IMG/VR virus record: IMGVR_UViG_3300046001_011620
Span: 1 to 36,856 of that record
Length of the DNA stretch: 36,856 bases
Source of the DNA: a virus
Reading direction: 5' to 3' (one strand)
The notes below the pieces were generated by a model. It made no database searches. It saw only the letters and a program-made list of their open reading frames with translations, and was not told the origin of the DNA. Both the position numbers and the translations under genes were made by a program. This document shows, one piece after another, positions 17,251-19,090 of the stretch. Every line of letters starts with the position of its first letter. Within the stretch, counting starts at the first letter, position 1.

Positions 17251-17760
17251 TCAACCCTGAAGCGCCGCCGCCAAGGTTTCGCTGATGATGTCGAGAATAC
17301 CATCGCGGTCTTCATCTGAGATGCCCAGAAACGGCCGGGCCGGAATATTGCCCCATGGCAAGTGATGGAAATGGTCGCGACCCTTTTTGTCTTTGCCTAT
17401 GAACGCCCCGAACGCGCCTTGCGCCGCGCCGAACTGCTGCACGGCCGCATAGGGTTCCGGCGATCCCACGCTCGCCCAATTTGGACCGTAAGCGTGTTTG
17501 AGGCTGTTACCGAGCTGCCCGCTGTAATGCAGGATGCCGCCAAATGGCTTGCCGACTTTTTTATAGCGATCGAGGGTTGACTGCGCACGGGGAGCCCAAG
17601 CCGTGCCGTTCGGCGCTGTCTGTGTCTTAAATCGGTCTTCTGCTTGGTCACGCAGATATCCCCCGATCTCATTCATCATCGCCGTAGCATCTGTCAAAAC
17701 GGCGGACACGCCATTGAGGGCTGCTTGAACTTCGGCATCGTTGATTTCAACCGTGATCAT
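17251..17760 (-). CDS. G: Mu gpG-like virion morphogenesis / tail completion protein
   Basis: 169 residues. VLTDATAMMNEIGGYLRDQAEDRFKTQTAPNGTAWAPR is the classic start of the phage virion morphogenesis (tail S / Mu G) family, and HLPWGNIPARPFLGISDED is its typical C-terminal motif. It finishes head or tail joining. It precedes the protease gene but lies upstream of the activated promoter at 17.2 kb, so it must be read from an earlier start. The plus-strand tRNA-like element starts 16 nt in front of its ATG. Confidence 0.88.
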   Translation of the reverse strand: MITVEINDAEVQAALNGVSAVLTDATAMMNEIGGYLRDQAEDRFKTQTAPNGTAWAPRAQSTLDRYKKVGKPFGGILHYSGQLGNSLKHAYGPNWASVGSPEPYAAVQQFGAAQGAFGAFIGKDKKGRDHFHHLPWGNIPARPFLGISDEDRDGILDIISETLAAALQG

Positions 17761-17769
17761 CGCTATATT
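17741..17769 (+). promoter_or_regulatory. Predicted sigma70 promoter of the tRNA-like RNA
   Basis: TTGATT (17741-17746), a 17-nt spacer, then TATATT (17764-17769) on the plus strand. The predicted start, 7 nt after the -10, is 17776, the first base of the closing stem of the cloverleaf. The promoter lies over the start of gene G and points against the late operon. The match of promoter, spacing and RNA 5' end is what raises my confidence; it has not been tested. Confidence 0.55.
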
Positions 17770-17775
17770 CCTTTG

Positions 17776-17864
17776 GTGATCTGGTGTACCCCGATGGGCA
17801 AGGGGGCTTACTACGGCCCAGCACCGTAGAAGTTGATGTCGGTTCGAATCCGACCCCAGGTCAC
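17776..17864 (+). ncRNA. tRNA-like cloverleaf RNA with extended anticodon arm
   Basis: Elements in order: a 9-bp closing stem (GTGATCTGG 17776-17784 with CCAGGTCAC 17856-17864, one G-U); U8-A9-like TA; a D-arm CCCC/GGGG with a 9-nt loop holding GA, GGG and AA; an anticodon-like arm 17807-17832 of CTT, bulged A, CTACGG, 7-nt loop CCCAGCA, CCGTAG, AAG; a 5-nt variable loop; and a perfect T-arm GTCGG-TTCGAAT-CCGAC (17838-17854). A normal anticodon stem has 5 bp, and U33 is replaced by C, so decoding is unlikely. The 3' end is CACA, not CCA. It opposes genes F and G and overlaps the F stop codon. It could be a phage tRNA mimic, an antisense RNA or a decayed tRNA; compensating pairing in all arms argues against decay. 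It may match a family already in Rfam. Confidence 0.55.
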
Positions 17865-19090
17865 ACTTTACCAGAAATCAAAATTGCTCCTGCACCGATC
17901 AGTGCTTTGATATCGTTGTCGTTGACCGTCCGCCCTGACTCCACAATGTTCATCTCGCCGATCTTTTTAAGTTTGTACCTGACAGCCACGACAAGCTTCG
18001 TCGTCCCGGCCATACGATAAACCAGCAGCAAAGTGGGGCGATCTGATCGAGCCGCATCCAAAATAGCCGTATCGGCCGCACTTAGATGAACGGGCAAGTC
18101 GCGATACCAGCCAAGGTCCATGGTACCGGCCTTCGCATTGCGGAACGTGTGCCAGATATCCTGATCACGGACCGCAATTTCAGCCGTTGCGGGCAAAATG
18201 CCTTCCGCCTCTAGAGCCTGTATCCAGCGAGGTTGCATGAAGCCTGCAACCATCATCTTACCGCGCGGTGGCCCGGTCAGGGTTTCATCGACGAAGGCAC
18301 CAAACGCATCCGCCCATGCACGCACAACAGGCTGTGGCCAAGAGCTCGCCATCGCGGCCCCGATCGGTGAGGGCAAGGCGGCAAGCTTTTCGGTGATTGG
18401 GAGTAGAGCGCGAATGGCCGTCGCGCCCGGTGCATAGTCCCAGCCCTTGTCAATTCCGCGCGCCACGCCGGTCTTTGGATCTGGCGACTGCCAGCCGCTC
18501 GGCAACACTTTGCCCGGATCACCTTTCGCGCGCCGAATCCCGGCCTCGGTGTTGGCACCCCGAATGCGGCAGGTGCAGCCCCAGCCGTTCGGTGGCGCAT
18601 GGGTCTGCCAGAACGGATGATCAGGCGGCAGGGCTAGCCCATCCCAAGCCAGATGCTGCAGGCGCGGTTCAAGCGCGTTGCCGTGCTTGTAGACCCAGAA
18701 CTTGAATTTGCCGTCGACCAGCTGCGCCATGCGACCCGCCGCATAGGACGTGGCCATGTTGGTGCGATAGATCACCTTTGCCCGCCATGCCTCACCCTTG
18801 GCTGTGCCCTGCCCCGTCCAGCCGTTCCAACCCCGCGCCTTGGCGATGCTCAGAAACTCATCGCGGAACTGATCCAGCGAGCGGTGTTGCGATATCGCCT
18901 TGTCGACTGCGCCCGCCAGATCGGCCAGCAGATCAGCCTTCATTGCCCCTGCGACGACAAAGGCGCGATCATGTGCCGCGTGCTGCAGATCGTCCCAAGC
19001 TTGCGTGGGGATCAGATTGGCAAACCGCAGGCGAAGGGCTGCGAGCTGCTCGGCGAAAGGTGACCCAAAGGTCGCGGCGAGAACGGTCAA
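17861..19090 (-). CDS. F: Mu gpF-like minor head protein with C-terminal PBECR-like domain
   Basis: 409 residues. The first 240 are a standard MuF head morphogenesis domain: RTNMATSYAAGRMAQL, then LAWDGLALPPDHPFWQTHAPPNGWGCTCRI with its conserved His and Cys. After a linker, residues about 300-409 (AVRDQDIWHTFRNAKAG ... LPVHLSAADTAIL ... KLVVAVRYKLKK) resemble the PBECR group (phage Barnase-EndoU-ColicinE5/D-RelE-like nuclease fold) often fused to MuF. Whether it is catalytic is unclear. F proteins sit inside the head at the portal, so the domain may be injected. It shares 4 nt with the portal gene. The stop codon lies under the 3' end of the tRNA-like RNA. Confidence 0.85.
   Translation of the reverse strand: MTVLAATFGSPFAEQLAALRLRFANLIPTQAWDDLQHAAHDRAFVVAGAMKADLLADLAGAVDKAISQHRSLDQFRDEFLSIAKARGWNGWTGQGTAKGEAWRAKVIYRTNMATSYAAGRMAQLVDGKFKFWVYKHGNALEPRLQHLAWDGLALPPDHPFWQTHAPPNGWGCTCRIRGANTEAGIRRAKGDPGKVLPSGWQSPDPKTGVARGIDKGWDYAPGATAIRALLPITEKLAALPSPIGAAMASSWPQPVVRAWADAFGAFVDETLTGPPRGKMMVAGFMQPRWIQALEAEGILPATAEIAVRDQDIWHTFRNAKAGTMDLGWYRDLPVHLSAADTAILDAARSDRPTLLLVYRMAGTTKLVVAVRYKLKKIGEMNIVESGRTVNDNDIKALIGAGAILISGKV

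Follow-up and report, generated by a model that had tools for sequence, protein, structure and literature searches.

The F and G genes of a Mu-like phage, carried on IMG/VR virus record IMGVR_UViG_3300046001_011620 (positions 1 to 36,856; this whole stretch of 36,856 nucleotides (nt) is called here the window), are separated by a gap of 100 nt, in which the small immunity open reading frame (ORF) that might be looked for downstream of F was not found and which is occupied instead, on the opposite strand, by a tRNA-like RNA. The question raised by this locus is what such an RNA does beside a minor head protein. The comparison of the locus with its relatives makes it likely that the RNA, referred to as W-type, is a structured immunity factor (antidote) mimicking the body of a tRNA and acting on a predicted ribonuclease (RNase) domain at the C-terminus of F, which would itself be a virion-borne MuF polymorphic toxin. 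Direct support comes from the structure of the RNA and its conservation, from the promoter-like sequence in front of it, from its linkage to intact active sites of the nuclease, and from the joint loss and joint exchange of the two.

An earlier note on this DNA, made from the sequence alone, had described an autonomous tRNA-like RNA lying antisense to F and G, and a TTGATT-N17-TATATT promoter that would start it at the closing stem. Read letter by letter, TTGATT occupies positions 17741-17746 and TATATT positions 17764-17769 with a spacer of 17 nt, and the predicted start coincides with the first base of the closing stem, as had been proposed. The minimum free energy fold of the single sequence contained the four arms (-38.6 kcal/mol) and was only moderately better than those of shuffled sequences (z -2.1); therefore conservation had to decide whether the cloverleaf is real. 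Homologous loci were gathered from viral contigs and genomes via their F proteins, and antisense cloverleaves were recognized in the F-G gaps, the first several by a plain cloverleaf scan and then more by the pattern of the D-arm. In the alignment of 22 W-type relatives from F-G gaps the D-arm was nearly invariant and TTC-A was kept in the T loop; 96.4% of the pair cells were paired, changes on both sides were present in 12 of the 18 scored pairs, compensatory change was found in eight of the nine pairs of the closing stem, and the covariation score was 0.436 versus at most 0.072 with the partner slid. Unguided RNAalifold gave the same four arms, with compensation in 18 of 24 predicted pairs. 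A covariance model was built from the relatives, and the search of 351 kb with this model, R1, found only RNAs of F-G gaps, among them a tRNA-like type that is more distant and lay outside the training set. Comparative analysis thus confirmed the cloverleaf at 17776-17864 as real and conserved, and it is accepted because the relatives show compensatory change, not because of the single-sequence fold. The earlier note had named a lack of conservation of the arms or promoter in homologous F-G gaps as the finding that would speak against it; both were conserved, in the same gap and on the same strand, and its description of the RNA was borne out.

The D-loop GG, the T-loop TTCRA and the acceptor stem typical of tRNA are conserved in the 22 relatives, with covarying pairs, the tRNA-like acceptor being the inner 7 bp of the 9-bp closing stem; the four arms and the T-arm were as described earlier. 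The linkers were not tRNA-like: 4 nt (UGUA) join the acceptor to the D stem instead of two and a single unpaired C stands between the T stem and the acceptor instead of none, both features being shared by almost all W-type members. The anticodon-position arm formed a hairpin in all but one doubtful match, comprised 18-37 nt and had no loop common to the relatives, so that neither a conserved 7-nt anticodon loop containing U33 nor a fixed anticodon identity was found; the window hairpin carries C where U33 is expected. A CCA end is absent from the window RNA, in which ACAC directly follows the 7-bp acceptor on its 3' side, and the 3' arm of the closing stem overlaps the F stop codon (17861-17863). 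On these features the W-type RNA is not a translating tRNA, because the anticodon-position arm is variable and has no conserved anticodon, and the exclusion of a normal tRNA with a decoding function made in the earlier note stands.

Two of the program checks proposed there gave a divided answer. In Rfam no family reached the gathering score for the window element, the nearest being tRNA-Sec with 24.2 bits versus 47 needed, whereas ARAGORN called tRNA-Arg(acg), a result obtained by forcing the fold. There was no Y-RNA match in Rfam 15 at any threshold used, and the assignment to a known Rfam family (tRNA, Y-RNA or other) was rejected for want of a match. No direct DNA homology of the 160-base element was detected in phage and plasmid collections, and the T-arm motif, used by itself as a scanning pattern, picked up ordinary tRNAs along with unrelated elements. 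The weaker matches of model R1 in host genomes that were checked were real tRNAs (25-38 bits), which shows how tRNA-like the family is. A strong gyrase site, considered for an element at the genome centre as in Mu, was rejected, since the Mu site lies between G and I and the compensation seen here is of the RNA type.

The protein encoded opposite the RNA, F, corresponds in PHROG to "minor head protein and DNA pilot". Its C-terminal domain had no match of its own in the Pfam search. The AlphaFold2 model of this domain (predicted local distance difference test 92.4, predicted template modelling score 0.87) retrieved from viral models, with Foldseek, MuF C-terminal domain proteins, phage "nucleases" and polyvalent proteins with probability 1.0. 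Sister F proteins with gap RNAs possess C-termini above the Pfam cut-off for PBECR3 (loci L032, RC1, L129 and L121) or PBECR2 (L168 and L146), and weak Pfam matches were obtained to MuF_C (L117) and PBECR3 (L132). Assignment to the BECR/PBECR clade by fold and sequence comes from Pfam for the sister classes; for the window domain its sole basis is the Foldseek matches to MuF_C proteins. The configuration of BECR/PBECR domains, in which an early helix provides the catalytic His (replaced by Arg in one family) and a late Ser/Thr accompanies it, was recognized in the window F as His314 and Ser385. The domain is predicted to be an RNase of the BECR clade, in which MuF_C and PBECR are placed by published analysis (PMC5512222); the same analysis regards Mu gp30, Mu's own copy, as inactive and suggests RNA binding for it.

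The strongest link between the RNA and this domain is their occurrence together. G was located by an iterated hidden Markov model and the F-G gap was measured in 180 of 198 distinct F genes. The gaps were bimodal, 43 of them at -4 to +10 nt and the remainder at least 56 nt wide, and wide gaps held an antisense RNA where inspected. Within the domain class of the window the catalytic His was lost in all 24 members in which F and G touch and was kept in all those with a wide gap. The PBECR3 class had lost its His motif in five of five touching members, the second His being kept in all others; in the PBECR2 class the GITTF motif was altered or lost in both touching members, and F proteins devoid of the C-domain, with G adjacent, had no gap. 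When an automatic rule was applied to 158 distinct F, 112 combined an active domain with a wide gap and 41 a dead or absent domain with no gap, leaving five discordant (Fisher p 4e-32, uncorrected for kinship); F and G touch in 41 of the 45 F with a dead or absent domain. The discordant cases were L156 and L168 (motif column uncertain), L171 (F truncated), L247 (G not adjacent) and L251 (active by the rule, motif altered). On the tree of F N-domains (314 branches) there were 15 changes of activity and 12 of the gap, nine of which fell on the same branches, all of them joint losses.

Reference phages agree with this: the domain is dead and the RNA absent in Mu, JBD67, Fc02 and phiSHP3, whereas B3 possesses an intact domain and an RNA. 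The rule was then applied to named phages fetched after it was made. Pasteurella phage AFS-2018a showed a gap of 124 nt, a conserved ILHALRDSKK motif and a tRNA-like RNA downstream of TATAGT; SuMu a tRNA-like RNA with a PBECR3-like domain; and RcapMu a gap RNA with a PBECR2-like domain. The motif was lost and the gap missing in Fc02, phiSHP3, Klebsiella ST405-OXA48phi1.1 and Mu, and in MuM16-1 both the His and the gap were absent. The strand-specific RNA-seq of Fc02 (PMC9936078) was considered as expression evidence and was uninformative, this phage having a dead domain and no RNA. F C-termini of the metallopeptidase type (HExxH), found in one Vibrio and one Pseudoalteromonas phage, were accompanied by no RNA; in the Vibrio phage, which is annotated, a small ORF lies between F and G, in the usual place of an immunity protein. 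Small ORFs were also observed just after F at L299:2877-3074 (metallopeptidase), at L302:2787-2972 and in the gap of L053 (other non-BECR C-termini), and those following non-BECR C-termini are candidate immunity proteins.

The domain and the RNA are, moreover, exchanged together. Different classes of C-domain are found on F proteins whose N-domains are up to 89% identical, and the class of the RNA changes along with the C-domain: the MuF_C class is paired with cloverleaf or class C RNAs, PBECR3 with class D, PBECR3-like domains with class B and PBECR2 with others. Nucleotide comparison of five swap pairs showed that identity stops at F codon 222-240 and resumes between 20 nt before G and the very start of G, so that the phages are 75-90% identical outside a cassette extending from about F codon 235 to the start of G. 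Relatives of the window F thus combine an N-terminal MuF domain with an exchanged C-terminal domain, as MuF polymorphic toxins do. Joint exchange of this kind is characteristic of a polymorphic toxin and the immunity gene that belongs to it; since domain and RNA move as one cassette, the system would be a polymorphic toxin with RNA immunity.

Table 1. Positions, strands and basis of the features at the F-G junction of the window.
Feature	Position	Strand	Basis or remark
F (MuF minor head protein)	17861..19090	-	MuF N-domain (Pfam PF04233, E 1.6e-11) and MuF_C/PBECR-type C-domain
F C-terminal domain, residues 222-409, predicted BECR-clade RNase	17864..18427	-	AlphaFold2 and Foldseek
His314 codon (DIWHTFR), predicted catalytic	18149..18151	-	lost in 24 RNA-less class members, kept with gap
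Ser385 codon (VESGRTV), candidate second catalytic residue, late strand	17936..17938	-	alignment and the PBECR configuration published in PMC5512222
G (virion morphogenesis / tail completion)	17251..17760	-	PF05069, E 7e-35; bounds the exchangeable cassette
Promoter-like TTGATT-N17-TATATT	17741..17769	+	sigma70-type; -35 within 5' part of G, -10 in G leader
tRNA-like RNA (W-type)	17776..17864	+	predicted extent from +1 to end of closing stem; 78.3 bits with covariance model R1
Closing/acceptor stem, 9 bp	5' arm 17776-17784, 3' arm 17856-17864	+	5' arm GTGATCTGG pairs with 3' arm CCAGGTCAC
D-arm CCCC-GATGGGCAA-GGGG	17789..17805	+	nearly invariant among W-type relatives
Anticodon-position hairpin GCTT(A)CTACGG-CCCAGCA-CCGTAG-AAGT	17806..17833	+	bulged A, loop CCCAGCA
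T-arm GTCGG-TTCGAAT-CCGAC	17838..17854	+	3/5 pairs compensatory; TTC, A and closing bases invariant in relatives

Inspection of the antisense strand of the gap in other phages revealed several structural classes of RNA, typically with the closing stem 6-8 nt past the -10 box and the 3' end near the F stop. The consensus upstream of the RNAs of 97 relatives was TTGA / TATAxT with a mean score of 9.4 versus 6.6 (standard deviation 1.9) for shuffled sequences, and these conserved promoter-like boxes are supportive of transcription rather than proof of it. Intrinsic terminators followed only a few gap RNAs. Tandem RNAs of two types were observed beside a single F nuclease domain at L133, L092, L153 and L157. 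In phage B3 an annotated hypothetical ORF of 99 bp (ORF34, L194:2767-2865) lies over the antisense gap RNA and is probably spurious. Haemophilus phage SuMu (L305) contains, antisense at the F stop, a tRNA-like RNA with the closing stem AGCCGCTAG/CTAGCGGCT, and this cloverleaf adjoins a PBECR3-like C-terminus, a class otherwise paired with class B RNAs.

Class D RNAs present in about half of their members a 5-bp stem with the loop CUCAUAC or close variants; the automatic class D motif is loose and marks some class B gaps too. The stem-loop UCGGG-CUCAUAC-CCCGA of L072 is one base off the anticodon stem-loop of E. coli initiator tRNA, the sequence of which was checked in the collection. Initiator-type hairpins were seen on the antisense strand of the F-G gap in L072, L055, L032, L044, L047, L050 and others, and the loop UUCAGGU of L009, L019 and L121 is that of E. 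coli tRNA-Leu(CAG). These resemblances suggest that each RNA imitates the substrate of its own nuclease. It is accordingly judged fairly probable that at least four classes of MuF nuclease, in Mu-like phages of several proteobacterial classes, each possess their own class of structured RNA, imitating the tRNA or other RNA under attack, and are swapped with it as a toxin-RNA cassette.

The following course of events may be proposed. F would travel inside the virion and, as is supposed for MuF proteins, pass into the next cell along with the DNA; there its BECR-type domain would cleave RNA, tRNA being the most likely target. The antidote would be transcribed from its own sigma70 promoter, which is separate from the late operon and opposite to it, so that the lysogen could contain the RNA and its synthesis could precede that of F. 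By occupying the nuclease as a non-productive tRNA look-alike, it would protect the producer cell and the lysogens, and nuclease domain and RNA would form one exchangeable cassette with the RNA in place of the usual immunity protein. So far the antidote role for such injected toxins has been assigned to small proteins. The proposal offers an answer to two questions left open in the literature, namely the function of the C-terminal extensions in MuF proteins of Proteobacteria together with the way in which their hosts survive them (PMC5576092), and the reason why F of phage Mu carries an inactive RNase-like domain (PMC5512222). If it is true, the immunity factors known for polymorphic toxins would come to include RNA, nature would supply tRNA-mimicking inhibitors of RNases, and the target of a toxin could be read from its partner RNA, for instance initiator tRNA for PBECR3 with CUCAUAC hairpins.

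Several points weigh against the antidote proposal. Among solved structures Foldseek gave nothing significant for the window domain, and the RNase toxin BrnT came up only weakly. The -10 box overlaps the leader and ribosome-binding region of G, and its conservation could be partly translational. Gap width served as a proxy for the RNA in the large table, and the RNAs were read by eye at most, not all, loci. Apparent exceptions exist: L307 partly keeps the PBECR2 motif, with the N-terminal helix altered, and has no RNA; L100 has an 11-residue deletion beside the His and keeps its RNA; L171 encodes a truncated F and keeps the gap; and L251 is a further case. W-type RNAs also occur as orphans in prophage remnants. 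Finally, co-occurrence alone cannot tell an inhibitor from a cofactor.

This last point leads to the main rival, in which the RNA would serve the F nuclease as cofactor, chaperone or cargo (for example in folding, capsid loading or guiding). All the linkage evidence is equally expected under it, RNase domains may hold RNA, and it fits the earlier idea of an RNA used in the particle. It is nevertheless considered unlikely, because an independent promoter directed against the late operon is better suited to constitutive protection than to co-assembly at a late stage, structural mimicry of the probable substrate fits a competitive inhibitor, and immunity agrees with both the tandem RNAs of different classes and the small immunity-like ORFs next to other F C-termini; two types of RNA in one gap may be compared with the extra immunity genes of polymorphic toxin loci. 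A cis-antisense regulator of F/G translation or of late-operon transcription agrees with an RNA that is antisense to the F-G junction and has its promoter within G. It is improbable to a marked degree, since the RNA is exchanged together with the nuclease domain and conserves tRNA-like tertiary motifs and compensatory pairs that perfect antisense does not need. Antisense control of the late operon, put forward in the earlier note, was rejected on the co-loss of RNA and nuclease: the RNA is absent where the domain is dead or missing, even though F still adjoins G within one operon. The note had also suggested a decoy for tRNA-modifying or tRNA-cutting enzymes. A decoy of a tRNA-cutting enzyme comes close, the enzyme being probably the phage's own F nuclease and not one of the host; a decoy for host defence enzymes placed in this gap by chance would explain a tRNA shape without decoding capacity, yet it leaves the dependence on F catalytic residues and the matching of RNA and nuclease classes unexplained, and its probability is very small. 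A decayed host tRNA or a chance fold, in spite of the ARAGORN call and the real tRNAs that R1 also finds, is already contradicted by compensatory substitutions, invariant loops across many phages and conserved promoter and position, and can be practically discounted.

With the antidote proposal preferred, the system may be compared with known ones. It resembles the MuF polymorphic toxins of Jamet et al. 2017 (PMC5576092) in the MuF N-domain, the variable swapped C-terminal effector domain and the temperate phage context; immunity there was assumed to be a small downstream ORF, whereas here an antisense RNA takes that position. Delivery of effectors by MuF is a hypothesis published in the same work, which did not decide whether the C-terminal extensions frequent in Proteobacteria act as toxins. 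The domain clade is that of the PBECR/MuF_C RNases of Iyer et al. 2017 (PMC5512222; Pfam PF18810, PF18812, PF18819), the passages of which on these domains include no partner RNA such as that described here. In type III toxin-antitoxin systems (ToxIN, CptIN, TenpIN), as would be the case here, a structured RNA is proposed to neutralise an RNase by direct binding. Their RNA consists of tandem repeats upstream in the toxin operon, in contrast to a single tRNA-like unit lying antisense, 3' of F and with its own promoter, and the proposed toxin here comes from another domain clade and sits on a virion protein. A ToxN/AbiQ-type fold was not found, the best Foldseek matches being MuF C-terminal domain proteins, with no ToxN among the PDB matches listed. 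Colicins D/E5, CdiA-CT tRNases and VapC, which acts on initiator tRNA, are also RNases with tRNA targets, several of them of BECR fold, and, unlike what is proposed for the nuclease considered here, they are neutralised by proteins. The bacterial YrlA Y-RNAs likewise bear tRNA-like D/T modules on a non-decoding RNA; the W-type RNA has no Rfam match, and its genomic partner is another one. Searches of the PMC library, which does not cover subscription papers and preprints, revealed no earlier description of an RNA of this kind.

Some minor observations concern related elements. The family of G002 (298 genomes) gave five strong W-type matches, located in the F-G gaps of L283 and L293, beside a G without F (L294), beside a remnant of the I-protease (L296) and, in L295, without an obvious phage gene nearby; the RNAs of L294-L296 may be orphan immunity elements or remnants. 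L082, L083 and L085 share a tRNA-like element without encoded CCA, the outer part of which is conserved while the anticodon arms differ, and ARAGORN called Gly in two of them and made no call in L083. In a phage contig (L084:8484-13595) 16 tRNAs were called; one of them, which has the anticodon CTA and was designated tRNA-Pyl, is a possible amber suppressor.
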